In this document: positions 5,340 to 20,421 of the stretch, piece after piece
Layout: every line of letters starts with the position of its first letter
Position numbering within the stretch: the first letter of the stretch is position 1
From: Sutcliffiella sp. FSL R7-0096
Lineage (GTDB): Bacteria; Bacillota; Bacilli; Bacillales; Bacillaceae_I
NCBI RefSeq assembly: GCF_038595065.1
Contig: NZ_CP152003.1
Span: forward strand, 2,584,001 to 2,648,000
Length of the DNA: 64,000 nt
Reading direction: 5' to 3'
The notes under the pieces: model-generated
What the model was told of the DNA's origin: nothing
What the model saw: only the letters and a program-made list of their open reading frames with translations
Databases searched by the model: none
Translations under genes and position numbers: made by a program

Positions 5340-5360
5340 CTTTTTCACCTCAAACGTATA

Positions 5361-5406
5361 ACGTTTATTCAACGCTATAATAACATTCCGTTAAATAAAC
5401 AGTCAA
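5361..5406 (-). promoter_or_regulatory. Promoter and palindromic operator of the thioesterase-PheDH operon
   Basis: Minus strand: -35 TTGACT (5401-5406), 17-18 bp spacer, -10 TTATTA/TATTAT (5377-5383), then at once the palindrome GCGTTGAATAAACGT (5361-5375). Near-identical palindromes occupy the same position at the ABC importer and paaA promoters. A second copy (12 of 15 positions) lies at 5388-5402 inside the -35/-10 spacer. This is typical repressor-operator geometry; PaaX is the candidate regulator by proximity. Confidence 0.75.
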
Positions 5407-5440
5407 TAAATTGTAGAAATTTTATAAATAGTCAATAAAA

Positions 5441-5471
5441 AAGAGTAGAACGGAGGGTCCATTCTACTCTT
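5441..5471 (-). terminator. Intrinsic terminator of the ABC importer operon
   Basis: Perfect 10-bp stem (AAGAGTAGAA / TTCTACTCTT) followed on the minus strand by TTTTTTA. It lies downstream of the ABC ATPase gene and just upstream of the thioesterase promoter, insulating the two units. Confidence 0.85.
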
Positions 5472-5487
5472 GGTGTATACCATTAAC

Positions 5488-5618
5488 GGTTGATCTTCGT
5501 TTCAGGCGCTTCACTTTCCTGCTGGCGGTCCGTGAGCCTCCTCGACTTCGTCTGCGGAGTCTCACCTGTCCCTTCTTCCAAGCGGGAGTCTGCGCGCGCC
5601 TTCCACTACGATGAACTA
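5488..5618. repeat. GC-rich Bacillaceae intergenic repeat, copy 1
   Basis: Noncoding GC-rich block starting GGTTGATCTTCG and containing GCTTCACTTTCC, GGCGGTCCGTGAGCCTCCTC and GGGAGTCTG words. It is shared with copies at about 41514, 45997, 51468 and 51579. It lies between the end of the ABC operon and its terminator. Confidence 0.75.
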
Positions 5619-5661
5619 GGTTTCTACCTATAAATCAATGTAACTTCTTTATTTAATCAGT

Positions 5662-6456
5662 TTAGCTTAGTAACGCTCTGTCGTTGGTCATTTGTTGGCC
5701 GCGTATTCGCTGGAATTCGGATAAAAGTCGTTCGATGGTAAGGGTTTTCTTTTCCTCTTCTTCTACTTCGAGAATAATTTGGCCTTTGTCCATCATGATC
5801 AGTCTATTACCTAGATCGAGTGCCTGTTGCATGTTATGGGTCACCATCAATGTGGTTAAGCCTTTATCGGCCACAATCTCTTTGGTGATTTTTGTAATTA
5901 ATTCTGCACGAGATGGATCTAGGGCTGCCGTATGCTCATCCAATAAGAGGATATCCGGTTCGGTAAATGTCGCCATTAATAAGGACAGGGCCTGTCTCTC
6001 TCCTCCGGATAACAAGCCGACTTTTGCAGAAAGCCTGTTCTCAAGGCCAAGGTGAAGTGTTTCGAGCACTTCTTTGAAATAAGTTTTTCTCTTTTTAGTA
6101 ACACCCATTTTCAATGTGCGATTTTTATTACGGGAGTAGGCCATCGCAAGATTCTCTTCAATCGTCATAGTTGGGGCGGTCCCCGCCATTGGATCCTGGA
6201 ACACCCTCCCGATATACCTTGCTCTTCGATGCTCAGCCATATAAGTAACATTTCTACCGTCAATTTCTACTTTCCCCGTATCCGGTGTAAGGACACCTGA
6301 AATCATATTCATCAAGGTGGATTTCCCTGCACCGTTACTTCCGATGATGGTGACAAAATCCCCTTTTTTCATAGAAAGGTTTATTGTATCTAGTGCATTC
6401 TTTTCATCTAGAGTGCCTTCATTAAATACCTTGTTAATCTGAGTTAAGTGTAGCAC
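5662..6456 (-). CDS. ABC importer ATPase, aromatic amino acid (TrpXYZ) type
   Basis: About 264-residue cytoplasmic ATPase energising import. Walker A GSNGAGKS, signature LLSGGERQAL and Walker B DILLLDEHTAALD are all present; the HTAALD form is typical of the COG1101 ATPases paired with TrpX-like binding proteins. The GTG at 6456 is chosen for its AAAGGGGGAGC ribosome binding site; it overlaps the permease end by 23 bp, implying coupling. Third gene of a binding protein-permease-ATPase operon. Phenylalanine or another aromatic compound is the likely cargo, from family knowledge and the shared operator. Confidence 0.85.
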   Translation of the reverse strand: MLHLTQINKVFNEGTLDEKNALDTINLSMKKGDFVTIIGSNGAGKSTLMNMISGVLTPDTGKVEIDGRNVTYMAEHRRARYIGRVFQDPMAGTAPTMTIEENLAMAYSRNKNRTLKMGVTKKRKTYFKEVLETLHLGLENRLSAKVGLLSGGERQALSLLMATFTEPDILLLDEHTAALDPSRAELITKITKEIVADKGLTTLMVTHNMQQALDLGNRLIMMDKGQIILEVEEEEKKTLTIERLLSEFQRIRGQQMTNDRALLS

Positions 6457-7456
6457 GTTGCTCCCCCTTTCCATTCGCGGCACCAAGAGATTGGAGCTTT
6501 AACATCTTCTGCTTTTTCCGCTTTCTCTCTTTATAGCTCTCAATGAATCTAGGGGTTATAAGTGCTAAAATAACAATGGTAGCTGTAATGGCCTTTAAAT
6601 CACCTGTTTCCAAGAAATCTACCCTTAGTGCCAAGGTGACTACTATCCTGTAGATGATCGCCCCACCTATAACTGCAAAGGTTGTCCATGCAATGGTTCT
6701 AGTGCCGAAGATGGCTTCCCCGATGATGACAGATGCCAATCCGATGATGATCATTCCGATTCCCATACCAACATCTGCATAACCGCCGTGTTGTGCAATC
6801 AGTGCACCTGAAAATGCAACCATCGCATTAGAAATGCCCAATCCCACTATGACTAGTCCGCTTGTATTGGCGGACAAGCTGCGAATCATTCGTTTATTGT
6901 CACCAGTAGCCCGGATTGCCAACCCTATCTCGGTTTTCAAGAAAAGGTCCGTTAAGATTTTGATGGCAAACGTGACAAGGAGCATGATGATAATAATCGC
7001 CCAAGTCCGTGGTACGAAAGCTCCTAAGCCGATAGATGAAAAGATATTATTCAAAAACGGATCGATTCCCATATCATTCCACCAGGAGCGAACATTTTTA
7101 AAAAACGTATCGCTGTTCATTAGGGGAACGTTCGATCTGCCCATTATCCGTAAATTGATGGAATACAGGGCAATCATCATCAAAATACCAGATAGCAAAG
7201 GATTGATTTTACCGAAAGTATGTAATGATCCGGTTATGCAACCTGCAATGAAACCGGCTACCATAGCCACCAATGTTGCCGTAACAGGGCTATAGCCACT
7301 TACAATCATAGTCGCAGCTACTGCTGCACCTGTAACAAAACTTCCATCTACCGTCAAATCAGGAAAATCAAGGACCCTAAAGGAAAGATATACCCCCAGG
7401 GCCATGATTGCGTAGATGATTCCCAATTCGACTGAACCAAAAATTGCTGTAATCAC
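6434..7456 (-). CDS. ABC importer permease, aromatic amino acid (TrpXYZ) type
   Basis: 340-residue integral membrane permease with about 8-9 hydrophobic segments, of the branched-chain/TrpY-like permease family (COG4120 type). The N-terminus is hydrophobic from residue 1 and the C-terminus is basic (SYKERKRKKQK). A conserved cytoplasmic segment (LKTEIGLAIRATGDN) resembles the EAA-like coupling loop. It lies 30 bp downstream of the binding-protein gene and overlaps the ATPase. It presumably forms a homodimeric channel for the aromatic substrate. Confidence 0.85.
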   Translation of the reverse strand: MITAIFGSVELGIIYAIMALGVYLSFRVLDFPDLTVDGSFVTGAAVAATMIVSGYSPVTATLVAMVAGFIAGCITGSLHTFGKINPLLSGILMMIALYSINLRIMGRSNVPLMNSDTFFKNVRSWWNDMGIDPFLNNIFSSIGLGAFVPRTWAIIIIMLLVTFAIKILTDLFLKTEIGLAIRATGDNKRMIRSLSANTSGLVIVGLGISNAMVAFSGALIAQHGGYADVGMGIGMIIIGLASVIIGEAIFGTRTIAWTTFAVIGGAIIYRIVVTLALRVDFLETGDLKAITATIVILALITPRFIESYKERKRKKQKMLKLQSLGAANGKGEQRATLNSD

Positions 7457-7486
7457 GTAAGAATCATCTCCTTGTTGTCTTATGCA

Positions 7487-8485
7487 TTATTTTTCATCAT
7501 AGAATTCTGCAATTTCCGTCCAAGCGTCCTGTACTTCGACACCTTGTGCTTCTGCAGCATCTGTATTAATGGTCAATTTCAAGTTTTGAGGGTAGGATAC
7601 AGGAATCTCAGAAGCTTTCTTTTCACCTTTTAAGATCTGCACCGCCATCAATCCTGTTTCATATCCAAGATCATAATAATTGAATCCGCTCGCAGCCACG
7701 GCTCCTGCTTCCATGGAGTCAAGATCCCCTGCAAACAATGGAATCTTTTCGTTACTTGCAACCGTAACAAGTGATTGTAAGGCTGATACAACTGTGTTAT
7801 CTGTAGGCATATAGATCGCATCCACTCTACCTATCAATGATTCAGCAGCCTGTTGAACCTCAGCAGAAGTCGACACGGAAGCTTCTACTAGGGAAGCCCC
7901 TTTTCCCTCTACCAGACTCTTAACAGTTTCCACTTGAACAACAGAGTTCTGTTCACCGGTGTTATAGATTACACCAATGTTTTTCGCACCAAGTTCATCC
8001 ACCATAAAGTTGATGGTAGTGGCAATGGCCTCCGGATGTGTATCAGATGTACCGGTAATGTTGTCCCCTGGTTTATCAAAAGATTCTACCAACTCTGCTC
8101 CAACCGGATCGGTAACAGAAGTAAAGATGATAGGTATGTCTTTTGTCGCTTGTAAAGCACTTTGCGCACTTGGAGTGGAATTGGCAAATATCATATCCAC
8201 TTCATCTGCAACAAACTTATCGGCTATTGGCTTATTATTGTTTGGATCTCCTTGTGCATTTTGAACATCGTACTTAACGTTTTCGCCTTCTTTGTAGCCA
8301 TTGTCTTCCAGCGCCTTCTTAAACCCTTCAAATGCAGCATCTAAAGAAGGATGTTCAGCAATTTGAGTCACACCAATTACCACTTGGTCCTTTGCATCTC
8401 CACTTGTTGCATCAGAGCTGCAACCAACCAGCAAGGCAGCACATGCAACACTTGCCAAAATGGATTTCATCTTGATCTTTTTCAT
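7487..8485 (-). CDS. ABC importer substrate-binding lipoprotein, TrpX-like (COG2984)
   Basis: 332-residue lipoprotein: signal peptide with lipobox LLVGC (Cys about residue 22), then a two-lobed periplasmic-binding-protein-like fold. Segments such as PIIFTSVTDPVGAELV and IYMPTDNTVVSAL are typical of the COG2984/TrpX family, whose characterised streptococcal members bind tryptophan and phenylalanine. The ATG follows AAGGGGGAT. The leader carries a sigma-A promoter, the operator shared with the paa and PheDH operons, and a cre site, which suggests it imports phenylalanine or a related aromatic compound. No T-box leader is seen. Confidence 0.88.
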   Translation of the reverse strand: MKKIKMKSILASVACAALLVGCSSDATSGDAKDQVVIGVTQIAEHPSLDAAFEGFKKALEDNGYKEGENVKYDVQNAQGDPNNNKPIADKFVADEVDMIFANSTPSAQSALQATKDIPIIFTSVTDPVGAELVESFDKPGDNITGTSDTHPEAIATTINFMVDELGAKNIGVIYNTGEQNSVVQVETVKSLVEGKGASLVEASVSTSAEVQQAAESLIGRVDAIYMPTDNTVVSALQSLVTVASNEKIPLFAGDLDSMEAGAVAASGFNYYDLGYETGLMAVQILKGEKKASEIPVSYPQNLKLTINTDAAEAQGVEVQDAWTEIAEFYDEK

Positions 8486-8536
8486 CGTTTATCCCCCTTA
8501 TATATGTTTTAAGCCACATAAGAAATATGTAAGCTT

Positions 8537-8550
8537 TGAAACCGTTTACA
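8537..8550 (-). promoter_or_regulatory. Candidate cre (CcpA) site, ABC importer leader
   Basis: Minus-strand TGTAAACGGTTTCA is a good match to the cre consensus, placed between the promoter and the start codon of the binding-protein gene. This position is typical of CcpA repression by roadblock. Confidence 0.65.
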
Positions 8551-8583
8551 ATAAATGTATATCTATGATGTCAATTAAGCTTA

Positions 8584-8629
8584 ACGTTTTTTCAACGTTA
8601 TATTAACACCAAAATTTTAAGAGTGTCAA
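8584..8629 (-). promoter_or_regulatory. Promoter and operator of the ABC importer operon
   Basis: Minus strand: -35 TTGACA (8624-8629), 18 bp, -10 TAATAT (8600-8605), directly followed by the perfect 5-bp-arm palindrome ACGTTGAAAAAACGT (8584-8598). It has the same architecture and sequence class as the thioesterase-PheDH and paaA promoters. Confidence 0.75.
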
Positions 8630-8699
8630 TATATTCTAAAAATTTAAATAAATTTATTATTGTACAATAAATACGCCATTTGTCCCAAAAACCCTTTTT

Positions 8700-8890
8700 A
8701 TTTTTGAAAATAAAGGCCCTTTTCTAAAAGATTGTTGGTATTCACTAGTGAAAAGTCGGCAATTAGACTTTTCACCGCTTAAAATATGCAGGTAGTATAT
8801 TTTGTATTGCAGCGCAAAGAGCATGACAGTAAGTAATATAACGGTTGGATTAAAAATACGTAAAAGCAGCAAAGTTTTACGATATGAGCC
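8700..8890 (+). repeat. AT-rich dispersed repeat family A, copy 1
   Basis: Shares TCTAAAAGATTGTTG, AAAGTCGGCA and GAGCATGACAGTAAG with copies at 25631-25808, 49254-49430 and 56907-57113. Internal hairpin GTGAAAAGTC (8748-8757) / GACTTTTCAC (8766-8775), plus the overlapping palindrome TTCACTAGTGAA (8741-8752). No coding potential seen. Confidence 0.8.
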
Positions 8891-8903
8891 AAAAAATAAA
8901 AAG

Positions 8904-8930
8904 AAACCTCTTCTTACATTAGAGGTTTCA
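8904..8930 (-). terminator. Intrinsic terminator after nitronate monooxygenase-like gene
   Basis: Stem GAAACCTCT / AGAGGTTTC followed on the minus strand by TTTTTATTTTTT. Confidence 0.85.
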
Positions 8931-8937
8931 ACACTGA

Positions 8938-9885
8938 TTATAATAAATCTTCGGATCTTTGCAGCTGACTTTTGGCATCAGCTATCATCTGTTCAAATAA
9001 TTCTTTTACACTAGGAATGGAAGAAATGACGCTCGATATCTGACCACCATTAATAAACCCTTTTTCCAACTCTCCATTGACTGCTCCTTTTATATGATGT
9101 GCTTCGGTGGTCAGCTCGTTAAATTCTTCTAGCGTGACCCCTTCTTTCTCTTTATGGAGCAAATGATCCGCATATGGAGTGCGGAGTACCCTTCTCACTC
9201 TTCCTACGCTCCGCCCTACAATGACAGTCCCCTGATCATCCGCTTCTAAAATTGCATTTTTGTACTGAGGATGGAACGGGGCCTCCATAGTTGCAATTAA
9301 CCTTGTCCCCATCTGGACTCCTGATGCCCCAAGAGCCAATGCGGCAGCAAGACCTTTGCCATTTCCGATCCCCCCCGCAGCTGCTATTGGGATTGATACG
9401 ACATCCGCTATTTGAGGAATTAAAGTCATGGTGGTGGTTTCTAAATTAGAATTGATTCCAGCGGCCTCAAAACCTTCTGCCACAATAATATCGGCACCGG
9501 CTTTTTCCGCTTTCATTGCCTGTTTAGGGGAAGCGACCACACATATGACTTTTACTCCATGCTCTTTCAGTTTCGGTATGTAAGGTGACGGATTTCCTGC
9601 AGAAAGGGAGACAACTGGGACCTTATGCTTAATGATTAGGGTTAAAATTTCTTTTGTAAACGGTGAAACCGATAATGCAACATTCACCGCAAAGGGTTTT
9701 CCTGTCATGGTTTTGGTTTGCCTTATAATTTCTTCCACTTCTTCCGGAAGCAACGTTCCTGCCCCAATCGTACCAAGGCCACCTGCATTGGATACTGCTG
9801 CGGTTAAAGGAGCATTACTAATATTCCCCATCCCTCCCTGAATGATAGGAAGGTTTATCCCTAGAATCTCTATTAATTTATTCAT
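8938..9885 (-). CDS. Nitronate monooxygenase / FabK-like FMN-dependent TIM-barrel enzyme
   Basis: 315-residue FMN flavoprotein of the NMO/2-nitropropane dioxygenase-enoyl-ACP reductase II superfamily. N-terminal PIIQGGMGNIS; central VVAEGFEAAG; phosphate-binding AAGGIGNGKGLAAALALGASGVQMGTR. Single gene with GAGGGGTG ahead of the ATG and its own terminator. Members act as nitronate monooxygenases or, as FabK, in fatty acid synthesis; sequence inspection does not decide between them. It lies among paa genes but has its own promoter region, divergent from the PaaY-like gene, so a role in aromatic catabolism is not established. Confidence 0.82.
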   Translation of the reverse strand: MNKLIEILGINLPIIQGGMGNISNAPLTAAVSNAGGLGTIGAGTLLPEEVEEIIRQTKTMTGKPFAVNVALSVSPFTKEILTLIIKHKVPVVSLSAGNPSPYIPKLKEHGVKVICVVASPKQAMKAEKAGADIIVAEGFEAAGINSNLETTTMTLIPQIADVVSIPIAAAGGIGNGKGLAAALALGASGVQMGTRLIATMEAPFHPQYKNAILEADDQGTVIVGRSVGRVRRVLRTPYADHLLHKEKEGVTLEEFNELTTEAHHIKGAVNGELEKGFINGGQISSVISSIPSVKELFEQMIADAKSQLQRSEDLL

Positions 9886-9964
9886 CTATTCTTTCACCCC
9901 TCGTAAAAATAATGTTATACTAATTTTAATATTTAGACAATATCTACTCAGGAGGTAATAAGCT

Positions 9965-10483: not shown

Positions 10484-10500
10484 TATGAAGTATAGGTAGG

Positions 10501-10529: not shown

Positions 10530-10555
10530 TTTGTGGAATAATCATTTGAGTAATT

Positions 10556-10969: not shown

Positions 10970-11845
10970 TCACTCCATAATATAAGGATGATTCATCACA
11001 TCATACTTCTTATCCTTCAATTCCAACTCATTACCGTCCTCAAAGACCTCTTCAAAAAACCGGGAAGCTGGTTCAGCCAATTCTTTATAATACTCACTAA
11101 ATAAAGAAGCCGCATGGCTGCCTAGCCACATATCCGGCAAAAGCTCTTCTGGCAGTCCTGGATCAACGAACAGGAACTTTCTGTATTCATGTACAAGCTT
11201 GGTCCGCTCAACAAAACAATCGGCATCTGTCATTTGGCCTTTTCCAATCTTATTCTTGTCGATGATATACTTCTGACTATACTCTTGTATAAATTGTTGG
11301 TACCGTCCATTAATCTCATTAAGATCCCAACTTTTCATAACAAGTCGTTCATTTTCGTATGGACCATGATATTCTGAAATGAAAAAGTCGACATACTCTT
11401 CAATTTCATATTTTGATATAAGGTCTTGTACTTGTTTTTCTAATGAGTTGGGCGAAATCCAACAACTGTTGGATAATGTACCAAATCCACTCCAGACCAA
11501 CTCTTTACGCAATTCATCCCGAACACTTCGGATTTCTTCTGGTATGGTGTACATGAGCATGCGCCATTTTCCATCCCAGCTATCCGTCTTCAGCTTGAAA
11601 ATACGTTTTGCCGCTTCGTCAATTCTTTTCACGCCGCGTTCTGTTAAAAAATAATAACTTTTGTTTCCCTTTTTCTTCGCTTGGACCCATCCCTGCTTGT
11701 TCATACGGGAAATCGCTGCTCGTACGGCTTGATCATTATGACCGAATTCATTTAATAATTTGATTAAACTTCCGATCCAAATTTTATTGCCATAATGTCT
11801 GACATAGTCACCATATAAAGTAAAAATCATTGATCTTGTATTCAT
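10970..11845 (-). CDS. paaX: PaaX-family transcriptional repressor
   Basis: About 291-residue GntR-like winged-helix regulator. The N-terminal HTH region (SLIKLLNEFGHNDQAVRAAISRMNKQGWVQ) and wing are followed by the PaaX central and C-terminal domains. Characterised PaaX proteins repress paa genes and release DNA on binding phenylacetyl-CoA. The ATG at 11845 is preferred because GAGG lies 8-9 bp upstream, whereas the ATG at 11854 has no room for a ribosome binding site. Monocistronic, downstream of the paa operon. Its own upstream region has TAACGCGTTA but not the 15-bp operator shared by the three catabolic promoters. Confidence 0.92.
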   Translation of the reverse strand: MNTRSMIFTLYGDYVRHYGNKIWIGSLIKLLNEFGHNDQAVRAAISRMNKQGWVQAKKKGNKSYYFLTERGVKRIDEAAKRIFKLKTDSWDGKWRMLMYTIPEEIRSVRDELRKELVWSGFGTLSNSCWISPNSLEKQVQDLISKYEIEEYVDFFISEYHGPYENERLVMKSWDLNEINGRYQQFIQEYSQKYIIDKNKIGKGQMTDADCFVERTKLVHEYRKFLFVDPGLPEELLPDMWLGSHAASLFSEYYKELAEPASRFFEEVFEDGNELELKDKKYDVMNHPYIME

Positions 11846-11974
11846 TTCCTGCATCCTCTTTCTGCCACAAATGATAAATCGCTATATTACAGTAATTTCA
11901 TTTTAACAGAGTAACGCGTTATAGAAAAGACAGAACGGAAAACTTATCCAAGTATCCTTCAAAAAACATCCCAA

Positions 11975-12005
11975 AGAATCATAGGGCATCAAGCTCTATG
12001 ATTCT
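11975..12005 (-). terminator. Terminator of the paa operon, overlapping the thiolase stop codon
   Basis: Perfect 10-bp stem AGAATCATAG / CTATGATTCT with an 11-nt loop; the upstream arm of the transcript contains the TAG stop of the thiolase gene. The T-run follows after a few bases (TTGGGATGTTTTTT). Confidence 0.7.
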
Positions 12006-13207
12006 TGTAGTCTCTCTACTATTGTCGCAATTCCCTGTCCAACACCTACACACATTGTCGCAAGACCGTATCGCGCGTCCCGCTTATTCATTTCATGCAC
12101 AAGCGTAGTTAAGATTCTGGCCCCGCTAGCACCAAGAGGATGTCCGAACGCAATTGCCCCTCCATTAACATTCACTCTGCTTGGATCTAATTCTAGTTGA
12201 CGAATACATTCAAGCGATTGGGATGCAAATGCTTCATTTAACTCAATGAGGTCTAAATCTCCAACAGACAACCCAGCCCGCCCGAGTGCCTTCCTAGTGG
12301 CATAGATCGGCCCTATTCCCATAATGGAGGGAGTAAGCCCTGTAGCAGCAGACGTGACATACCTCGCTAACGGCTTCAAGCCAAGCTCCTTTGCTTTTTC
12401 TGCACTCATTAGTAGTAGTGCTGATGCGCCATCATTTACACCGGACGCGTTGCCTGCAGTGATTGTAGTTCCTTCGCCAAAAATAGGCTTCAGGTTGTTC
12501 AGTTTCTCCAAAGTTGTATCAGGTCGAGGATGTTCGTCGCAGTCAACAATTGTTTCCTTACCTTTTCTATCCACAATCGTGACTGGTACCATTTCTTCTT
12601 TAAAGCGGTCCGACTCCATAGCCATTTTTGCTTTTTGCTGGCTTTCATAGGCAAATACATCTTGATCTTCACGGGAAACGGAGAACTCTTTAGCGACGTT
12701 TTCTGCCGTTTGTGGCATCGTATCCACTCCGTACATTTTTTCGAGTTTTCTGTTGGTAAATCTCCAGCCAATGGTCGTATCCATCAATTCCATATTGCCA
12801 CGGGGATAATCCATTTCTGGCTTTGCCATGACAAACGGAGCCCTTGTCATGCTCTCCGTCCCGCCGGCTATAAAAATGTCGCCTTCTCCTACCATAATGG
12901 CCCGTGCCGCATAATTCACCGCATCAAGACCGGAGCCGCATAAACGGTTGATCGTGGTACCTGCCACCCCTACCGGAAGACCGGCCAATAGAGCACTCAT
13001 CCTTGCAACATTGCGGTTATCTTCCCCCGCTTGATTGGCATTTCCGAACACGACTTCTTCTATTTCGTTTACTGGCACATTCGGGTTTCTTTCTACCAAA
13101 GCCTTAATTACAATCGCCCCAAGGTCATCAGGTCGGACAGCCTTTAACGCACCTTTATATCTTCCAATCGGTGTGCGGCAAGCATCTACAATTACAACTT
13201 CCTTCAT
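11996..13207 (-). CDS. paaJ: Acetyl-CoA/3-oxoadipyl-CoA thiolase (PaaJ type)
   Basis: About 403-residue thiolase. Nucleophile Cys in NRLCGSGLDAVN, catalytic His in GGAIAFGHPLGASGAR and second Cys in MCVGVGQG. Last gene of the paa operon. In the phenylacetate pathway PaaJ performs two cleavages, on 3-oxo-5,6-dehydrosuberyl-CoA and 3-oxoadipyl-CoA, giving acetyl-CoA and succinyl-CoA. The ATG at 13207 has GAGAGAGG upstream; a GTG at 13216 is less likely. Assignment as paaJ rather than a generic acetyl-CoA acetyltransferase rests on operon position. Confidence 0.9.
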   Translation of the reverse strand: MKEVVIVDACRTPIGRYKGALKAVRPDDLGAIVIKALVERNPNVPVNEIEEVVFGNANQAGEDNRNVARMSALLAGLPVGVAGTTINRLCGSGLDAVNYAARAIMVGEGDIFIAGGTESMTRAPFVMAKPEMDYPRGNMELMDTTIGWRFTNRKLEKMYGVDTMPQTAENVAKEFSVSREDQDVFAYESQQKAKMAMESDRFKEEMVPVTIVDRKGKETIVDCDEHPRPDTTLEKLNNLKPIFGEGTTITAGNASGVNDGASALLLMSAEKAKELGLKPLARYVTSAATGLTPSIMGIGPIYATRKALGRAGLSVGDLDLIELNEAFASQSLECIRQLELDPSRVNVNGGAIAFGHPLGASGARILTTLVHEMNKRDARYGLATMCVGVGQGIATIVERLQES

Positions 13208-13228
13208 AATGGACACCTCTCTCGTTGT

Positions 13229-14074
13229 TTATTGGTATTCATAAACTCCTTTTCCACTTTTCCTGCCCAATCTTCCGGCTTTCACATACTTTTCGAGCAG
13301 AGGTGCCGGGCGATACTTTTCCCCTAACTTTTCATGAAGGTATTTCAGGTTATTAAGGCGTGTATCCAACCCCACCAGGTCTCCAAGTTCGAATGGTCCC
13401 ATCGGATAATTGAGTCCAAGCTTGATCGCTTTGTCTATTTCTTCAGGGGTACCTACCCCTTCTTGCAACATGTAAAATGCTTCATTCCCCACAAGGGCAC
13501 TGATTCTGCTTGTCACAAAGCCAGGAAATTCATTTACTACAACTGTTTCTTTCCCCATTTTTTCTGCTGCAGTACGAATAAATTCTGCCGTTTCATCGCT
13601 TGTTTCCAAACCGCGGACAATTTCTACAAGTTTCATTTTATGTACAGGGTTGAAAAAGTGCATTGCGATCACTTTTTCCGGTCTTGAAGTGAAGCTACCA
13701 ATTTCAGTTGGACTCATCGTAGAGGTATTGGAAGCGTAATAACAGTCCGAAGGTGCAATCTTGTCTAATTTTTCGTAGACGGATTTCTTGATTTCCATGT
13801 TTTCAGGTACCGCTTCTATTATAAGATTTGCTTCCTTCACGGCTTCCTCAAGTTCTGTAGAATAAAAAAGGCTATCCCTTAATTCTCCTGCTACCTGTTC
13901 TGTTAATTTCCCTTTTTCCAACCCTTTGGAGATGATGACTTCTATTTCTTTTCTAGCTCCTACAAGCTGTTCTTCTTTTACGTCAATTAGCGTTGTATGG
14001 TACCCGCCTAGAGCACTTACATATGCGATGCCGCGACCCATGACACCTGAACCGATTACCACTACTTTTTCCAT
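13229..14074 (-). CDS. paaH: 3-hydroxyacyl-CoA dehydrogenase (PaaH type)
   Basis: 281-residue NAD-dependent dehydrogenase. Rossmann motif GSGVMGRGIAYV at the N-terminus; catalytic segment AMHFFNPVHKMKLVEIVRG with the active-site His; C-terminal domain ending GRLGRKSGKGVYEY. It oxidises 3-hydroxyadipyl-CoA in the phenylacetate pathway. At 281 residues it has the short Hbd-like form, not the about 475-residue proteobacterial PaaH with a duplicated C-terminal domain. Start ATG with GGAGGAG upstream; inside the paa operon between the aldehyde dehydrogenase and thiolase genes. Confidence 0.9.
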   Translation of the reverse strand: MEKVVVIGSGVMGRGIAYVSALGGYHTTLIDVKEEQLVGARKEIEVIISKGLEKGKLTEQVAGELRDSLFYSTELEEAVKEANLIIEAVPENMEIKKSVYEKLDKIAPSDCYYASNTSTMSPTEIGSFTSRPEKVIAMHFFNPVHKMKLVEIVRGLETSDETAEFIRTAAEKMGKETVVVNEFPGFVTSRISALVGNEAFYMLQEGVGTPEEIDKAIKLGLNYPMGPFELGDLVGLDTRLNNLKYLHEKLGEKYRPAPLLEKYVKAGRLGRKSGKGVYEYQ

Positions 14075-14155
14075 CTAGACTCCTCCTTTATCATGCTGTA
14101 AAAAAAGCAAAGAGGACCATGCCCCTTTGCTCCAAAGATTAAGATTTTATTCTTT

Positions 14156-15673
14156 TTATACACCAAACGGATTGAGCGGACGGTTTCCAAAATAGGAAAT
14201 GATGCTCTTCGTTTCTGTGTAAAGATCAAGTGTTTCAATGCACAGCTCACGTCCGAAGCCGGATTGCTTGTATCCTCCAAACGGCGTGCCAGGGAATGCG
14301 GAGAATGGACAGTTGACCATCACGATTCCAGCTTGGATTTGTTTTGCCACACGGGTTGCACGGCCATGGTCTTTCGTCCAGATAGCTGAACCTAGTCCAT
14401 ATTCGCTGTCATTCGCAAGTTTAACCGCTTCTTTCTCATCGCTAAATGGCATAACAACCACTACTGGCCCGAAAATCTCCTCTTTTACCACTTTCATTTC
14501 GTGTGTTACACCTGTGATGATGGTCGGCTCATACCAGTAACCATTTTCATAGCCTTCCACTTTCGCAACTTTACCGCCTAAAACGATGTTAGCTCCTTCT
14601 TCTTTTGCAGATTGAACATAGCCGTCAATTACATCTAACTGACCTTGGTTGATGATCGCACCAATATGAGTTTCTTTTGCAAAAGGATCACCAAGGGAAA
14701 GCTTTTTCGCTTTTTCTACGAACTTCTCCATAAATGCATCATAGATATTTTCGTGGACATACAGACGGGAGCGCGCTTCACATGATTGGCCTGTGTTATA
14801 GAAAATTCCAAACAAAGATCCGTCTACTGCTGCATCAATGTCTGCATCTTCAAATACTAGATTAGGAGACTTGCCGCCTAGTTCCAATGTTACTCGTTTA
14901 AGTGTTTGGGAAGCTTTCTCCATGATATCTTTTCCGATTGGAGTTGAGCCTGTGAAAGCTACTTTGTCTACTTGAGGGTGTTCCACCAAGTAGTTTCCAA
15001 CTTCAGACCCAGCACCTGGGATGACGTTGACAACTCCCTCAGGAACTCCTGCTTCTACGCATATTTCACCTAATACAATGGCAGTTAGCGGAGTTAGGGT
15101 AGCTGGTTTCACGACAACAGAGCAGCCGACTGCTATTGCCGGGGCAATCTTCCATGCTGCCATCATTAATGGATAGTTCCAAGGAATGATTTGCGCACAA
15201 ACACCTACTGGTTCTTTTTCTGTGAAGTTGTGGAATTGTCCTGGAACGTTATTAACAGATCCACGGTGGCCAACGATAGCACCTGCATAGAACTCAAAGT
15301 CTTCAATTGCTTGCATCACTTGCCCTTGAGCCGCTGCAAGGGACTTCCCAGTATCTAAAATCTCTAACTCTACCAGCTCATTGAAACGGGAGCGCATGAT
15401 AGAGGCAATTTTATTTAATGTTCTTGCACGCTTGTTTAAAGGGAAGAGCTTCCACTTTCCTTTGTCGAATGCTTGACGCGCGGCTTGAACCGCTTTTTCC
15501 GCATCCTCTTTGGAAGCTTTCGCGATCGTTGCAACTGCTTCTCCTGTTGCAGGGTTGTAAGTAGTAAACGTTTCTCCTGTAGAACTGTCCATGCGTTGTC
15601 CTGCGATAATAAGTTGATAAGTGTCTCGTTTCATATCAAGTTGTTCCATCTTTTGCTCTTTAACTGTAGACAT
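14156..15673 (-). CDS. Aldehyde dehydrogenase of the paa operon (stand-alone PaaZ-dehydrogenase or phenylacetaldehyde dehydrogenase)
   Basis: 505-residue NAD(P)-dependent aldehyde dehydrogenase with IIPWNYPL, catalytic Glu in LELGGKSPN, catalytic Cys in NTGQSCEARSR and the C-terminal PFGGYKQSG. It is a canonical betaine-aldehyde-like ALDH with no C-terminal MaoC hydratase domain, unlike the about 680-residue bifunctional PaaZ. In this position the expected job is oxidation of the ring-opened 3-oxo-5,6-dehydrosuberyl-CoA semialdehyde, as stand-alone dehydrogenases do elsewhere. Phenylacetaldehyde oxidation is the alternative. Strong AGAGGAGATG ribosome binding site. Confidence 0.85.
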   Translation of the reverse strand: MSTVKEQKMEQLDMKRDTYQLIIAGQRMDSSTGETFTTYNPATGEAVATIAKASKEDAEKAVQAARQAFDKGKWKLFPLNKRARTLNKIASIMRSRFNELVELEILDTGKSLAAAQGQVMQAIEDFEFYAGAIVGHRGSVNNVPGQFHNFTEKEPVGVCAQIIPWNYPLMMAAWKIAPAIAVGCSVVVKPATLTPLTAIVLGEICVEAGVPEGVVNVIPGAGSEVGNYLVEHPQVDKVAFTGSTPIGKDIMEKASQTLKRVTLELGGKSPNLVFEDADIDAAVDGSLFGIFYNTGQSCEARSRLYVHENIYDAFMEKFVEKAKKLSLGDPFAKETHIGAIINQGQLDVIDGYVQSAKEEGANIVLGGKVAKVEGYENGYWYEPTIITGVTHEMKVVKEEIFGPVVVVMPFSDEKEAVKLANDSEYGLGSAIWTKDHGRATRVAKQIQAGIVMVNCPFSAFPGTPFGGYKQSGFGRELCIETLDLYTETKSIISYFGNRPLNPFGV

Positions 15674-15697
15674 ACTCTCATCTCCTCTAAGTTTTTA

Positions 15698-16471
15698 TTA
15701 TCTTCCTTTAAATGCCGGTTTTCTTTTCTCTATAAAAGAAGTTACCCCTTCTTTGTGGTCTTCTGATAGACCGGCAATTCTTTGACCATACGCTTCCTGC
15801 TCCAAATACTCCTCATACGTAACGTTCCAACTTGCTTGAATGGATCGTTTAATGAGTCCAATCGCTTGTGTAGGCATGTTAGCAAGTTTGTTCGCAAAAG
15901 CTTCCACTTCTTCGTTCCAACTGTCTACAGGGATCACCTTGGTGACAAGACCAAGTTCTTTTGCTTGCTCTGCTTTAATTTTCTCTCCTAATATAGCTAA
16001 CTCCAATGCTTTGGCCGTTCCCACCAATTTAGGGAGAAAATACAGATTCCCAGAGTCAGGGATTAACCCGACATGTATAAATGCCTGAACAAAGCTTGCT
16101 TTTTCAGAGGCAATACGAAAATCACATGCTAGGGCGAGACTGAAACCCGCACCGGCAGCAACGCCATTTATCGCAGCAACGACAGGTTTTTCACATCGGG
16201 ACAACTGTTTCATCATCGGCCCATATCTTGTACGTAAGACATGCCCGTGATCCATATTTTCATCTACTTCTGCAAGGTCCTGACCGGAGGAGAATGCTCT
16301 CCCTTCCCCGGTAATGACTATAGCCCGAACAATTTCATCCGAACTTGCCTGCTTTAATGCTTTTGTGATTTCTTTGTTCATCTGCTCTGTAAACGCATTC
16401 AATTTATCCGGTCGGTTCATGATGACCCATGCAACCTGGTTCACTATTTCATATTTAATGGTTTCAAACAT
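15698..16471 (-). CDS. paaG: PaaG-type enoyl-CoA isomerase (1,2-epoxyphenylacetyl-CoA isomerase)
   Basis: 257-residue crotonase-fold protein. The oxyanion-hole segment AAINGVAAGAGFSLALACD and the GLIPDSGNLYFLPKLVG motif have Asp where hydratases carry their second Glu, as in PaaG. It rearranges the ring epoxide to the seven-membered oxepin-CoA. It lies between paaF and the ALDH gene with about 12-25 bp gaps; GGGGGAGCCACC precedes the ATG. The distinction from PaaF rests on active-site residues and is fairly secure. Confidence 0.88.
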   Translation of the reverse strand: MFETIKYEIVNQVAWVIMNRPDKLNAFTEQMNKEITKALKQASSDEIVRAIVITGEGRAFSSGQDLAEVDENMDHGHVLRTRYGPMMKQLSRCEKPVVAAINGVAAGAGFSLALACDFRIASEKASFVQAFIHVGLIPDSGNLYFLPKLVGTAKALELAILGEKIKAEQAKELGLVTKVIPVDSWNEEVEAFANKLANMPTQAIGLIKRSIQASWNVTYEEYLEQEAYGQRIAGLSEDHKEGVTSFIEKRKPAFKGR

Positions 16472-16483
16472 GGTGGCTCCCCC

Positions 16484-17263
16484 TTATTCCCCTTCAAAAT
16501 TAGGCTTTCGCTTTTCTTTAAATGCACGCATGCCTTCTTTTTGATCTTTAGATGCAAACAAAAGATAAAAGTTCTTTCGCTCATACTGCATCCCTTCATA
16601 GACAGAGTAGTCCACTGCCTTATGGACAGATTCTTTGATCAATCGAAGGGAAAGAGGCGGTTGTTTAGCTATTTTTTTTGCAAACGTCATCGTTTCTTCC
16701 ATTAATAGTTCTTTAGGGATGACCCGGTTGATCACTCCATAGTGCAATGCTTCCTTTGCACTCATTCTGTCACCGGTAAGCAGCCATTCCATTGCTTTTG
16801 ATTTCCCCATTAGTTTCGTCAATCTCTGGGTTCCCCCGGCTCCGGGCATCACTCCGAGGCTAATTTCAGGAAAGCCGAATTCGGCATCTTGAGCTGCAAA
16901 TAAGATGTCACAGCAGAGGGCAAGTTCAAATCCTCCCCCAAGGGCAAAGCCTTGAACAGCACCGATAATAGGTTTCTTTACCCAAGCAAGTCGATCCCAT
17001 TCAGTGAATTGATTTAACAGTTCAAGCTCGATCGCTGTTGCTTCTGCCATTTCATCGATATCTGCTCCTGCGGCAAACGCACGGCCGTTTCCAGCCAGTA
17101 CCATAGCTTTGATTTCATCGTTTCGATCAAACTCTTCCAATACTGTCACAATTTCAGTGACCATCGGCCTGTTAATTGCGTTCAGCACTTTTGGTCTATT
17201 GAGTTTAACGATACCTATCGAGCTTTCAATGGAAACTTCGATATATTCGTACGTTTTACTCAT
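16484..17263 (-). CDS. paaF: PaaF-type enoyl-CoA hydratase
   Basis: 259-residue crotonase with both catalytic glutamates: GGGFELALCCD and FPEISLGVMPGAGGTQRL. These residues support true hydratase activity, expected on 2,3-dehydroadipyl-CoA in the phenylacetate pathway. The ATG overlaps the end of the EthD-domain gene by 8 bp, indicating translational coupling. Together with PaaG, PaaH and PaaJ it completes the beta-oxidation-like lower branch. Confidence 0.88.
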   Translation of the reverse strand: MSKTYEYIEVSIESSIGIVKLNRPKVLNAINRPMVTEIVTVLEEFDRNDEIKAMVLAGNGRAFAAGADIDEMAEATAIELELLNQFTEWDRLAWVKKPIIGAVQGFALGGGFELALCCDILFAAQDAEFGFPEISLGVMPGAGGTQRLTKLMGKSKAMEWLLTGDRMSAKEALHYGVINRVIPKELLMEETMTFAKKIAKQPPLSLRLIKESVHKAVDYSVYEGMQYERKNFYLLFASKDQKEGMRAFKEKRKPNFEGE

Positions 17264-17564
17264 TCACTTCTTCACCAATCATCAATGTGACAAGATTACC
17301 GGCAAAGCTCATTAGATCCTTTCCAGATGCTTTCGCTTCATCCGTTCTCATTGCTTGCTTTAACGCGTCGTGGCTATCGTAATACATTTCACACATTAAA
17401 TAGTACTTGCCTTCTCCACCCATTGGACTTCCTACTACTTTTGTGACTTCCATTTTGCGTAGGCCAGGGATCTTAGCAGTGATAGGTGCATGCGTGTCAA
17501 AGTAGTGCTGATCGAAAGCTTCCTTGTTTTCCGGGTGTTTATAGAGCGCGATTAATTTTACCAT
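17256..17564 (-). CDS. EthD-domain (dimeric alpha/beta barrel) protein in the paa operon
   Basis: 102-residue protein with an EthD/dabb-type sequence: MVKLIALYKHP, HYFDTHAPITAKIPGLRKMEVTK and a C-terminal GNLVTLMIG. EthD-like proteins accompany oxidative degradation systems (EthD is needed for ETBE oxidation by a P450) or act as small isomerases/cyclases. It lies between paaD and paaF and overlaps paaF. Not part of the Escherichia coli paa set, so a role in ring-opening or in stabilising a reactive intermediate is possible but unproven. AAAAGGAGAG ribosome binding site. Confidence 0.8.
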   Translation of the reverse strand: MVKLIALYKHPENKEAFDQHYFDTHAPITAKIPGLRKMEVTKVVGSPMGGEGKYYLMCEMYYDSHDALKQAMRTDEAKASGKDLMSFAGNLVTLMIGEEVNE

Positions 17565-17668
17565 TCTAAATCTCTCCTTTTATGGTCCCTCATTAAACCG
17601 CTGGGGTTTTATCAGGCCAGTTATTTATGTAATTGCCTGACAGTGTTTTCTCTGTAAGGCAGTGGTAC

Positions 17669-18160
17669 TTACATCATGGTGGAAACAGGTTTCATTGCTT
17701 CAAAAGGATTTTTACATCCTTTGCAGTAGAGAATGCTTCTACAAGCGGTCGGTCCGAAGATGTTATCTAATGTTGTATAGGTCGATCCACAATAAGGGCA
17801 ATCCACATGCCATTCCCCGGTGTTATCCAGTGTTGGCGGTGGGGCAATTCCAAATTCTTTTAAATGGATTCTGCCTTGTGCCGTAATTCGGTCAGAAGTC
17901 CATGGTGGCTGGTAGATGAATTCCACCTTTACTTTTTCGAATAATTCTAAGCTACTAATCTCGTTTTCCACATTCTTTTTTATGATATCCAGGGCTGGAC
18001 ATCCCATGAATGTAGGCAGCATCTGAATAGTCACCTCATGATTGTTTACATCGATTGCTTCCACCATCCCAAGATCCACAACACTGACAGAATCTATTTC
18101 AGGATCCTTTACATGCTGCAGGGCATCCCAAACCTTCATGATATTTACTTCTTCCTGCAT
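17669..18160 (-). CDS. paaD: PaaD: Fe-S/metal-assembly-like subunit of phenylacetyl-CoA epoxidase system
   Basis: About 163-residue protein: an N-terminal DUF59/MIP18-like domain (VKDPEIDSVSVVDLGMV...PTFMGCPALDIIKKNV) and a C-terminal zinc-ribbon-like CPYCGS ... CKGC. PaaD is required for ring-1,2-epoxidase activity, probably in cluster assembly. ATG 18160 gives a length matching the family (about 165); a GTG at 18208 overlaps the paaC stop and is less likely. Fourth gene of the paa operon. A 104-bp gap without a recognisable gene separates it from the EthD gene. Confidence 0.9.
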   Translation of the reverse strand: MQEEVNIMKVWDALQHVKDPEIDSVSVVDLGMVEAIDVNNHEVTIQMLPTFMGCPALDIIKKNVENEISSLELFEKVKVEFIYQPPWTSDRITAQGRIHLKEFGIAPPPTLDNTGEWHVDCPYCGSTYTTLDNIFGPTACRSILYCKGCKNPFEAMKPVSTMM

Positions 18161-18201
18161 GATGTCATCATTCCTTTTTGTTGGGCTAAAAGGTGTATAG
18201 A

Positions 18202-19023
18202 TTACCACACTGCTGCTGGATTGCTATTATAGACTTCCCCTAGCGTTAAGAGGGCATCATCCAAATCCTTGGTATGTTCACCTTTTCTGCCGTTCCCACT
18301 TTTCATTCCCATACTGGTAGGAAAAGTCAGCCCCACTTTTTCAAACATATTTGTCATTTCTTCTGTAAAGCGAAGGCGAATATCTTCCTCTGAATCTATG
18401 AGTTGGTGTTGGGTAATTTCAACAACACTTGGCCCTATTGAAAGTACACCATCAAATTCTTCTACAACTCTATCAATGGCTGCTTTCATCCTGGTCTTAG
18501 CTTCACCATTTGCTGTACACAACTGTCTGAACCAAGTTCTCCAGTGCAACAAGTGATAATAAAGTTCCATATTCACTTTTACTGTCACATGTTTCAGAGG
18601 TTCATAGGAGGAGTTTTTCAATGCCTCCACTTTAATTTTCTTGGCCTGTGTGTAAAAATAATGTCTTACGACTGTATATGCCCAGTCATATTTTGGTTCG
18701 GTGAGATAGGTTCCAGATCCGTTCACTTTTTCCAAAAGAACCGCGTTCACTCTATCTGCTGCTTTTCTTCCATGGGCAAGTGCATCCATATCTCCTTCGC
18801 CAAGATCCTCAAGCAATTGATAATACATAGCAGCATGCCCCATCGTATCTTGGTTTATGGAAGAAAATGCAACGTCCTCTTCAATATGCGGCGCAAGCCC
18901 AAGCCATTCCGAGCCCCTGTAGGCAATAATAAAATCGTCGTCGGCCAGTTGATATAATAACACTGTAAGGGCCTTGTAATAGGATGCATCCCTTTTGGCT
19001 TCTTCTATCGTTGCTATATTCAT
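18202..19023 (-). CDS. paaC: PaaC: structural subunit of phenylacetyl-CoA 1,2-epoxidase
   Basis: About 273-residue ferritin-like subunit that lacks a full di-iron site and scaffolds the PaaA catalytic subunit. Characteristic segments: LTVLLYQLADDDFIIAYRGSEWLG, INQDTMGHAAMYYQLLEDL, and the His/Trp-rich YHLLHWRTWF. The ATG at 19023 overlaps the paaB stop (ATGA), a coupled start, with GGAGGG upstream. It forms the PaaA-PaaC heterodimer in the epoxidase complex. Confidence 0.93.
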   Translation of the reverse strand: MNIATIEEAKRDASYYKALTVLLYQLADDDFIIAYRGSEWLGLAPHIEEDVAFSSINQDTMGHAAMYYQLLEDLGEGDMDALAHGRKAADRVNAVLLEKVNGSGTYLTEPKYDWAYTVVRHYFYTQAKKIKVEALKNSSYEPLKHVTVKVNMELYYHLLHWRTWFRQLCTANGEAKTRMKAAIDRVVEEFDGVLSIGPSVVEITQHQLIDSEEDIRLRFTEEMTNMFEKVGLTFPTSMGMKSGNGRKGEHTKDLDDALLTLGEVYNSNPAAVW

Positions 19024-19367
19024 CCTTTTTTCTTCCCTCCCCAAGACATGATTTCCTGTTCATCAAGCATTCCCTGTTCATAGTGGCGCCACTTTTTCTT
19101 CAAATATCCATAGCCTTTCGTGTTTCGGTAGTCCTTGTTGTCAATTCTCTGCAAGGATTGCCGCTCTTCTTGAGACATTTTTCGAATATCACCGCGTTGC
19201 ACCACCCAAATATCCACGGCAGGTTCCCGCCTCATAAAGTTTTCCTGTGCCATGACAAGCGCAATCTCTTCATTGGGTGCAAGTAGACTAAACTGATATT
19301 GCATCGGAGCTGTGTGGGTTCTCTTACTGAACACTTCAAATTCTTTGTAAAAACCTTTAGTAGTCAA
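19020..19367 (-). CDS. paaB: PaaB: small subunit of phenylacetyl-CoA 1,2-epoxidase
   Basis: 115-residue PaaB-family protein (FEVFSKRTHTAPMQYQFSLLAPNEEIALVMAQENFMRRE...DIWVVQ). It bridges PaaAC heterodimers in the epoxidase complex. The likely start is TTG at 19367, with AGGAG at 8 bp; no ATG fits. It has an about 20-residue basic C-terminal tail beyond the short E. coli form. Coupled to paaC by ATGA overlap. Confidence 0.92.
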   Translation of the reverse strand: MTTKGFYKEFEVFSKRTHTAPMQYQFSLLAPNEEIALVMAQENFMRREPAVDIWVVQRGDIRKMSQEERQSLQRIDNKDYRNTKGYGYLKKKWRHYEQGMLDEQEIMSWGGKKKG

Positions 19368-19384
19368 CTTCTAAGCTCCTCCCC

Positions 19385-20353
19385 TCACCCTGCTGATGTT
19401 TCGGAGCTTAACGCTTCGCGAACCCATGCATTATTTTCGTGTGCAATTATTCTCAATCTCAAGCGATCCTGTGATTTAGGACCTTTATTTCTGATAATAT
19501 CTTTAAAGTTGTTCCAATTTGGTTGTTTGTAAATCCATTTTTCTTCTTTTTCATCATAATGCATCGTTTCATCCGGCAATGTTAGACCAAGTGATAACAC
19601 TCTTGGGATGTATTTGGTGAAAAAGTCTTGGCGAAGTTCTTCATTGCTTTTCGTGCGGATATTATATTTCATCGTAATGTCTTGCTTTGATGTACCAGTG
19701 GTGGAGGCATCTGCCGGTCCGAAGAACATTAATAAAGCTTCCCACCAGCGATTGATGGAGTCTTGTATCATACTTCTTTGTTCTTCGGTTCCTTCTGCAA
19801 GCGCCATTATAATTGCTTCGCCGTGTTGTGCATGAAAGACTTCTTCTGCACATATCCGCTTTAACGCTCTCGCATAGGGTCCATAGGATGCATCTAGCAT
19901 ATTCGTCTGGGATATGATGGCCGCACCGTCAACAAGCCAGCCGATAAGACCTGCATCGCCCCATGTTGGAGCTTCCATATGAAAAACATTATGAAACTTT
20001 AAATCTCCTGAAAATAAATCTTGCATAATTTCTTCACGGGACTTCCCGTAAGGTTCCATCAAATCTTCCGCAACTCGCAACAGCAGCTGTCCATGGCCCA
20101 TTTCATCTTGAACTTTTGCCATGATCCCCAGTTTCCTTTTAAGAGTGGGTGCTTTAGGTACCCATTCCTTTTCTGGAAGCGCTCCCATTATTTCGCTGAT
20201 TGCATGCATTGAGATCAGTTTAATTAATGTTTTACGATATTCTTCCGGCATCCAGTCATCTGCTTCAATCTTTTCCCCAGCCTGGATACGCTGCATAAAA
20301 TGCTCATGTTTCTCTTCTTCCGTCAAGCGGTCAAACGATAATGAGTTGGTCAT
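19385..20353 (-). CDS. paaA: PaaA: catalytic di-iron subunit of phenylacetyl-CoA 1,2-epoxidase
   Basis: 322-residue ferritin-like oxygenase subunit. It carries the carboxylate-bridged di-iron ligand segments VQDEMGHGQ (Glu-x-x-His) and CAEEVFHAQHGE. With PaaB/C/D it converts phenylacetyl-CoA, O2 and NAD(P)H to the ring 1,2-epoxide. First gene of the main paa operon; AGGAGG precedes the ATG and the promoter/operator lies at 20377-20421. The usual ferredoxin reductase partner PaaE is not in this window. Confidence 0.95.
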   Translation of the reverse strand: MTNSLSFDRLTEEEKHEHFMQRIQAGEKIEADDWMPEEYRKTLIKLISMHAISEIMGALPEKEWVPKAPTLKRKLGIMAKVQDEMGHGQLLLRVAEDLMEPYGKSREEIMQDLFSGDLKFHNVFHMEAPTWGDAGLIGWLVDGAAIISQTNMLDASYGPYARALKRICAEEVFHAQHGEAIIMALAEGTEEQRSMIQDSINRWWEALLMFFGPADASTTGTSKQDITMKYNIRTKSNEELRQDFFTKYIPRVLSLGLTLPDETMHYDEKEEKWIYKQPNWNNFKDIIRNKGPKSQDRLRLRIIAHENNAWVREALSSETSAG

Positions 20354-20376
20354 TTTCGCCGCCTCCTAATTCTATA

Positions 20377-20421
20377 ACGTTTATTTAACGTAATTATAAT
20401 ATAATGTTATACGTTTATCAA
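20377..20421 (-). promoter_or_regulatory. Promoter and operator of the paaA operon
   Basis: Minus strand: -35 TTGATA (20416-20421), 17-bp spacer, -10 TATAAT (20393-20398), directly followed by the perfect palindrome ACGTTAAATAAACGT (20377-20391). A one-base-deleted second copy, AGTTGATAAACGT, overlaps the -35. Same architecture as the PheDH-operon and ABC-importer promoters; PaaX-type repression inferred. Confidence 0.8.

Follow-up and report, generated by a model that had tools for sequence, protein, structure and literature searches.

A conserved 39-bp dyad as the predicted PaaX operator at phenylacetate, importer and dehydrogenase promoters of Sutcliffiella sp. FSL R7-0096

Within the 64-kb stretch of Sutcliffiella sp. 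FSL R7-0096 DNA analysed here (the window), three operons carry a 15-bp palindrome of the form RCGTTN5AACGY directly after the -10 box, which raises the question of what protein might read these sites and whether the 15-mer is the whole of what is read. A first-pass annotation had taken the palindrome as a free-standing site for one repressor, with a regulon covering import, deamination/decarboxylation and ring degradation. The genes concerned are listed below with the promoters found by a scan that overall ran at chance level in positions 1-20000 (46 promoter-like pairs vs 42.5 in shuffles).

434..5372, minus strand: FlK-like thioesterase, Glu/Leu/Phe/Val-type dehydrogenase (PheDH), E1 alpha, E1 beta and E2 genes
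5377..5406, minus strand: promoter of the thioesterase-PheDH operon, TTGACT-18-TATTAT, 10/12
5662..8485, minus strand: ABC importer genes (ATPase, permease, TrpX-like binding protein)
8600..8629, minus strand: promoter of the importer operon, TTGACA-18-TAATAT, 10/12
10970..11854, minus strand: PaaX, predicted repressor (TIGR02277, 348.1 bits, cut-off 264.55)
11996..20353, minus strand: paaA to thiolase, ring-cleavage and beta-oxidation genes
20393..20421, minus strand: promoter of the paaA operon, TTGATA-17-TATAAT, 11/12
20441..21778, minus strand: paaK, phenylacetate-CoA ligase (TIGR02155, 643.4 bits vs a cut-off of 646.3)

The three 15-mers were recovered where they had been reported, at 5361-5375, 8584-8598 and 20377-20391 on the minus strand, and the positions of the -35/-10 pairs (spacers of 17-18 bp) place the start of each 15-mer 1 bp past the -10 hexamer, within the 1-2 bp that had been described. 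When one mismatch was allowed, RCGTTN5AACGY matched eight times in the window (two matches overlapping); shuffled sequences gave 3.2 matches on average, and none of 100 shuffles reached eight. Exact sites in the whole genome numbered 7 and those of a reversed control pattern 12, and therefore the 15-mer is not over-represented genome-wide; a genome-wide search with two mismatches was uninformative (127 sites vs 206 for the reversed control). Three of the 7 exact sites are the promoters listed above, within 15 kb, and the remaining four lie inside long open frames. Occurrences in coding sequence, which the first-pass annotation had counted against the motif, do therefore exist, whereas occurrences at other promoters, also counted against it, were not found among the exact sites. 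What is unusual about the exact 15-mers is their placement, not their number.

The 15-mer does not stand alone: it is made up of one arm and an inner CG belonging to a longer, 39-bp dyad, TATRAY-N27-RTYATA. With at least 11 of 12 positions matching (one mismatch at most), the dyad was found at four sites in the window, at the thioesterase-PheDH, importer, paaA and paaX promoters, and nowhere else in it; this number is near chance (2.8 to 3.2 expected), and only the placement exceeds it. Of 31 spacings compared in the window, none besides N27 touched more than two of the four promoters. Two inverted half-sites around a 27-bp spacer, the arrangement of a PaaX-type operator, are present at all four of them. 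The predicted operators, together with a probable variant at paaK, are as follows.

5357..5395, minus strand: predicted operator of the thioesterase-PheDH-E1-E2 operon, TTTAAC-N27-GTTATA, 11/12; contains the 15-mer 5361-5375 and is kept in relatives
8564..8602, minus strand: predicted importer operator, TATAAC-N27-ATCATA, 12/12; its upstream arm is overlapped by the 15-mer 8584-8598
11885..11923, minus strand: predicted operator at the paaX promoter, TATAAC-N27-GTAATA, 11/12
20373..20411, minus strand: predicted paaA operator, TATAAC-N27-GTTATA, 12/12; contains the 15-mer 20377-20391
21787..21824, minus strand: probable paaK operator, TATTAC-N26-GTTATA; kept in the genus

The predicted paaX operator lacks the 15-mer, and neither of its arms has an inner CG at a distance of 10 bp. 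A candidate lying between paaY and a FabK-like gene reaches only 9/12 here and was not counted as an operator. Taken by itself, the N26 dyad occurs in the window about as often as chance predicts (3 vs 3.1 expected); its conservation at paaK comes from a genus comparison that reported 14 of 16 fetched regions, the other two giving no paaK match, with a consensus relaxed at a single position in either arm.

The dyad was then followed in 80 named relatives (denominators vary from gene to gene), the half-site TATRAY having been learned on the same loci. It was found upstream of trpX in 65/68, of the thioesterase gene in 38/66, of paaA in 36/69 and of paaX in 25/79, and N27 was the best-scoring spacing at trpX, paaA and paaX. 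At seven other genes of these loci it was nearly absent, with 0 of 58-72 at aldh, paaC and hcd, 0/56 at E1b, and 2 of 65-72 at PheDH, thl and paaB. A family-balanced set, which shares genomes with the named loci, gave dyads at paaK (12/19), paaA (24/39), trpX (6/16), paaX (6/32) and the thioesterase gene (7/17), none at six control genes, and 1/38 at paaD. The two half-sites at paaA also covary, TATCAC being paired with GTGATR in 11 of the 12 named loci that have it, all of them close relatives. Among the ten closest trpX-bearing named loci, eight have ACGTTGAAAAAACGA at the importer promoter, one mismatch away from the 15-mer, and the longer dyad is retained. In a phylum-wide search PaaA was detected in 7/299 genomes, that of this strain included, and in four distant PaaA regions from that search the best dyad upstream of paaA reached 8 or 9 of 12.

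Other arrangements were considered and set aside. Anchoring the trpX comparison on the 15-mer gave best spacings of 16, 28 and 31 and masked the dyad, and it was an unanchored scan that revealed N27. Tandem ACGTT units 11 bp apart account for the promoters of the thioesterase gene and trpX, but only the N27 dyad extends to paaA and paaX as well. A spacing of 14 outscores 27 at the thioesterase gene (52 vs 38 of 66 named loci) and nearly ties with it at paaA in the family-balanced set (23 vs 24 of 39); this signal probably comes from the downstream half-site being paired with the -10 box, whose TATAAT matches TATRAY.

The extended 15-mer follows the distribution of PaaX. It is present in 77/104 PaaX-bearing genomes (absent from the other 27) and in 15/145 genomes that lack PaaX, and in the PaaX-bearing genomes 100 of the 112 extended sites are no more than 30 kb away from paaX or paaA; among 11 of the farther sites that were examined, five precede trpX or the thioesterase gene. 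In these 249 genomes PaaX and PaaA occur together in 103, PaaX alone in one and PaaA alone in two. Both of the latter carry a broken or just sub-threshold PaaX, and thus there is no true PaaX-less paaA control.

PaaX had been singled out as the only regulator gene nearby, and no other regulator gene recurs in the cluster. The PaaX protein encoded in the window scores above cut-off with PF07848, PF20803 and PF08223, which correspond to N-terminal winged helix, central Cas2-like and C-terminal domains. Taken together, the sequence comparisons suggest that the 15-mers are, with high probability, parts of operators for the repressor PaaX. The comparison lends good support to the proposal that a single repressor serves import, deamination/decarboxylation and ring degradation, with PaaX as the best candidate, but its site is not the 15-bp palindrome on its own. 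The most likely reading is a PaaX regulon that extends from amino acid import to ring cleavage, and it is predicted to include also paaX itself and, with the 26-bp spacer, paaK.

How such a regulon might work can be outlined. A PaaX dimer or larger oligomer would contact both half-sites, TATRAY on one side of the 27-bp spacer (26 bp at paaK) and RTYATA on the other, across some three turns of the helix, and at most promoters the inner CG, 10 bp from one half-site, may assist this contact. The predicted operators reach into the -10 box or the start region, so that PaaX bound there would keep RNA polymerase from the promoters of paaA, paaK, the importer and the thioesterase-PheDH-E1-E2 operon, as well as, in this genus, from that of paaX. 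Phenylacetyl-CoA, presumably made from phenylalanine by the regulated enzymes, would release PaaX. Since E1 alpha passes a curated pyruvate dehydrogenase model, the role of the E1-E2 complex in phenylpyruvate oxidation is only putative.

The alternative that survives best, still an improbable one, is that the sites are bound by a different repressor, e.g. a PaaR of the TetR type whose gene lies elsewhere in the genome. The genome has 13 TetR_N matches, PaaR and PaaX co-occur in several Bacilli according to a 2026 survey (PMC13186573), and the Thermus PaaR consensus, as given in a review (PMC9493321), likewise contains AACG and CGTT. However, the nearest TetR gene lies about 250 kb from the cluster, and when extra gene families were tallied over 120 cluster regions, the 28 that recurred most included a single recognised regulator, a PadR-like one in seven. 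No Thermus-type PaaR site was found in the window with up to one mismatch, and the single match to the Burkholderia type, with three mismatches, is at 45939, outside the cluster. It is quite unlikely that the conservation reflects nothing but strong core promoters (-35, -10 and start region): the sites do overlap -10 boxes, which also take part in the N14 signal, but the two half-sites keep a fixed spacing while sitting at different offsets from the -10 box in trpX and paaA, the downstream one at trpX is found well beyond the -10 box, and the extended site is concentrated in PaaX-bearing genomes. That the 15-bp palindrome alone is the operator is hardly credible, for although it is exact at three promoters and present with up to one mismatch at 48/66 thioesterase genes of the named loci, it reaches only 39/68 at trpX and 23/69 at paaA, where the dyad reaches 65 and 36, and in this genome paaX and paaK show the dyad but no 15-mer.

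If PaaX is the protein that reads it, the dyad provides a searchable PaaX operator for Bacillaceae. It would bring the phenylacetate pathway and the uptake and oxidation of amino acids under a single predicted switch, and it points to the thioesterase and the dehydrogenase complex as candidate pathway parts. The long-spaced operators are also material for studying how PaaX bridges three DNA turns; no structure of PaaX on an operator was known according to the review (PMC9493321). No PaaX operator in Bacillota was found in the literature searched, with most subscription papers outside its reach.

Compared with known systems, the TetR-type PaaR proteins of Thermus and Burkholderia exert phenylacetyl-CoA-responsive control of paa genes, as the same review describes (PMC9493321), but they belong to another family and use compact palindromes, which are absent from the promoters described here. 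The E. coli PaaX operator is given there as TGATTC-N27-GAATCA, with autorepression and phenylacetyl-CoA as inducer (PMC9493321). Upstream of E. coli paaA we found TGATTC-N27-GAATCG, and no TGATTC-N27-GAATCR in the window; if TRTGAT were taken as the E. coli core, the E. coli spacer would become 31. The remark of the first-pass annotation that the motif is unlike the E. coli site thus holds for the half-site (TATRAY vs TGATTC), though the 27-bp spacer is identical. Like E. coli PaaX, which has operators at paaA, paaZ and paaX, the protein studied here belongs to the TIGR02277 family and has paa genes as predicted targets; in this genus it may also act on its own gene. Unlike in E. coli, there is an inner CG, the importer, PheDH-E1-E2 and paaK promoters are additional predicted targets, and the two proteins are 33% identical. 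We tentatively suggest, at somewhat less than even chances, that PaaX operators from E. coli to Bacillaceae kept the same geometry with a changed half-site, and that the Bacillaceae PaaX may be a master switch, with the inner CG as a third contact, of a complete route in which phenylalanine is taken up, oxidatively deaminated, converted to phenylacetyl-CoA by way of a dedicated 2-oxoacid dehydrogenase complex and finally opened at the ring. The PaaX of Pseudomonas sp. Y2 reportedly controls both the styrene upper pathway and the paa genes. In both cases a single PaaX would join the lower paa pathway with an upper one that has phenylacetyl-CoA as its product, but the upper pathway in Sutcliffiella would begin, unlike that of Pseudomonas sp. 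Y2, with an aromatic amino acid.

The 15-mer, a palindrome (RCGTTN5AACGY) that the first-pass annotation had placed on the minus strand at the thioesterase-PheDH, importer and paaA promoters, was recovered at all three positions (5361-5375, 8584-8598 and 20377-20391) by a pattern search of the window, and its placement behind a good -10 box with a -35 box upstream was borne out as well, the -10 box ending 1 bp before the 15-mer at 3/3 promoters (-35/-10 spacers 18, 18, 17; matches 10/12, 10/12, 11/12 in a promoter scan). Alignment of promoters anchored on the 15-mer revealed a second conserved block upstream, from which the 39-bp dyad TATRAY-N27-RTYATA was derived; it was scored unanchored, with a threshold of at least 11/12 matches, and 31 spacings were compared. 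The relatives came from a PaaX search of genome contigs that gave 134 of them, and the best 80 of the 134 (PaaX identity 72-99% in the best segment) are the named loci used here; the closest named relative among the matches listed was Sutcliffiella horikoshii.

In the named loci, N27 was the top spacing upstream of trpX, the TrpX-like binding-protein gene of the importer operon (65/68; runner-up 32), of paaA (36/69; 21) and of paaX (25/79; 12). At the thioesterase gene it reached 38/66, second to N14 (52/66), a spacing that apparently couples the downstream half-site to the -10 box, and at seven other genes it was found in 0-2 of 56-72 loci. At paaA, an upstream TATCAC pairs with GTGATA or GTGATG in 11 of the 12 named loci that have TATCAC, a matched change within one group of relatives. 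In the window, the four occurrences of the dyad lie at four cluster promoters including that of paaX, and none of the other 30 spacings reaches more than two of these four; the count itself is not above chance (4 vs a mean of 3.2 in 60 Markov sequences and of 2.78 in shuffles, 31/100 of which reach 4).

At paaK in this genus the half-sites are spaced by 26 bp (with a slightly widened consensus, 12/14 genomes score 12/12 and one 11), and one of the 14 favours N27 over N26. Of the five window operators, all except that of paaX have a CG at a distance of 10 bp from one half-site, which is the downstream one for the thioesterase gene, paaA and paaK and the upstream one for trpX; the 15-mer is this inner CG plus the adjoining half-site. 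With at most one mismatch, the 15-mer occurs upstream of the thioesterase gene in 48/66 named loci, of trpX in 39/68, paaA in 23/69, paaX in 18/80, PheDH in 3/65 and thl in 2/70, and was not found upstream of paaY (0/35) or the FabK-like gene (0/74). The intergenic region of the latter two has a 15-mer with two mismatches in many relatives and, in the window, a degenerate site:

9886-9964, flanked by the divergently oriented paaY and FabK-like genes: CGTAAAAATAATGTTATA, dyad 9/12

The 15-mer is without overall enrichment in its own genome (4.9 Mb, one contig), because seven exact sites stand against 12 for the reversed control. Equal frequency at unrelated genes or in coding sequence had been named as an objection to the motif: four of the seven do lie in long open frames, and none lies at another promoter. 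Since these four are inside open frames, 15-mer promoters (3/7) are confined to one 15-kb stretch. An 18-mer, CGTAGGATTAACGTTATG, is repeated in this genome at 10799, 33235, 224496, 493216 and 1172751, perhaps beside rRNA or some other repeat.

A family-balanced set of 40 regions selected by PaaA, five with a distant or divergent PaaA, agrees with the named loci; it rebalances rather than replicates them, because some contigs equal named loci in length. N27 came first at paaK (12/19), paaA (24/39; N14, 23), paaX (6/32) and trpX (6/16), equalled N14 at the thioesterase gene (7/17 each), and was absent at PheDH, E1a, thl, hcd, aldh and paaC (0), with 1/38 at paaD.

Sufficiently long loci share, with variations, one arrangement: the paa genes, then paaX, the importer, the thioesterase, the dehydrogenase, E1 and E2. 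In several genera paaK lies closely upstream of paaA, which is then not the first gene, so that the paaA upstream region need not carry an operator there. L073 and L086 have no FabK-like gene or thiolase listed between the paa genes and the importer, hence a rearranged cluster in some Cytobacillus-like genomes. The first site-bearing operon encodes a FlK-like thioesterase, the Glu/Leu/Phe/Val-type dehydrogenase that the first-pass annotation named PheDH, and three components of a 2-oxoacid dehydrogenase complex (E1 alpha, E1 beta, E2); the remaining site-bearing units are the TrpX-like importer and the paa genes. Beyond the window lies a further set:

own genome 2577856-2584433 (locus L012, 857-7434), same strand as E2 and just 3' of it: E3-like gene and homogentisate-route-like set

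It comprises an E3-like pyridine-nucleotide disulphide oxidoreductase, then a protein matching the hydroxyphenylpyruvate-dioxygenase N-terminal model, and also an aminotransferase and fumarylacetoacetate-hydrolase-like and homogentisate-dioxygenase-like proteins; with these genes just downstream of E2, two aromatic amino acid routes would be adjacent. The substrates of the dehydrogenase, importer and E1-E2 complex are inferred: the dehydrogenase matched a tryptophan dehydrogenase model and the importer binding protein a tryptophan model, both with scores under cut-off, and E1 alpha matched a pyruvate dehydrogenase model over cut-off.

The named loci were collected via PaaX, so its presence there is no evidence of a link. 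Of 249 genomes of the order, 105 have a PaaA match, 104 a PaaX over cut-off and 103 both. The extended site YGTTRNNWWAACGTYATA gave 129 matches vs 29 for the reversed control and was present in 77/104 PaaX-positive vs 15/145 PaaX-negative genomes; 112/129 matches fell in PaaX-positive genomes, 100 of the 112 no more than 30 kb from paaX or paaA. Among 11 of the 12 distant sites (G139 left out), five (G205 twice, G238, G016, G189) lie upstream of trpX or the thioesterase gene, and six (L252-L257) do not and have a poor upstream half-site; in G045 and G017, sites some 15 to 30 kb away, counted as near, also precede the thioesterase gene. L252 (G020:C24:189069) is an exact extended site off the cluster in a PaaX-positive genome, with no gene found just 3' of it, and may be a chance match or an unrecognised target. 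On the first-pass remark that PaaX is the only regulator gene nearby: in the own genome some 250 kb separate the cluster from the closest TetR gene, and when the 28 extra gene families that recur most often in 120 regions were inspected (by eye, five of them Pfam-checked), the sole regulator recognised was PadR-like, in seven regions.

The proposal of one repressor and one regulon is supported by comparison, with the 15-bp palindrome now part of a 39-bp dyad. Sequence comparison indicates that the predicted operator is real, conserved, promoter-placed and common to a coherent catabolic regulon, and PaaX is by far the best candidate repressor. PaaX binding, ligand response and pathway function are predictions.

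No PaaX operator for Bacillota was found in the literature searched; excerpts of one paper (PMC13186573, 2026) report PaaX in Bacilli, the term 'binding site' being absent from that paper, and excerpts of another treat paa clusters with Bacillus unnamed (PMC2653477). PDB sequence matches of PaaX were only 8a39 (316-residue repressor chain) and 3kfw. The E. coli operator is given, in an excerpt of PMC9493321, as TGATTC(N27)GAATCA, with phenylacetyl-CoA as inducer and paaX repressed by its own product, and E. coli K-12 has TGATTC-N27-GAATCG upstream of paaA. This form was not found in the 64-kb window, in keeping with the earlier remark that the motif is unlike the E. coli site. Taking the E. 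coli core as TRTGAT, which fits TATRAY, gives an E. coli spacer of 31, not 27; with half-sites starting at TGATTC and TATRAY, a choice on which the comparison depends, the E. coli PaaX operator and the 39-bp dyad both have a spacer of 27.
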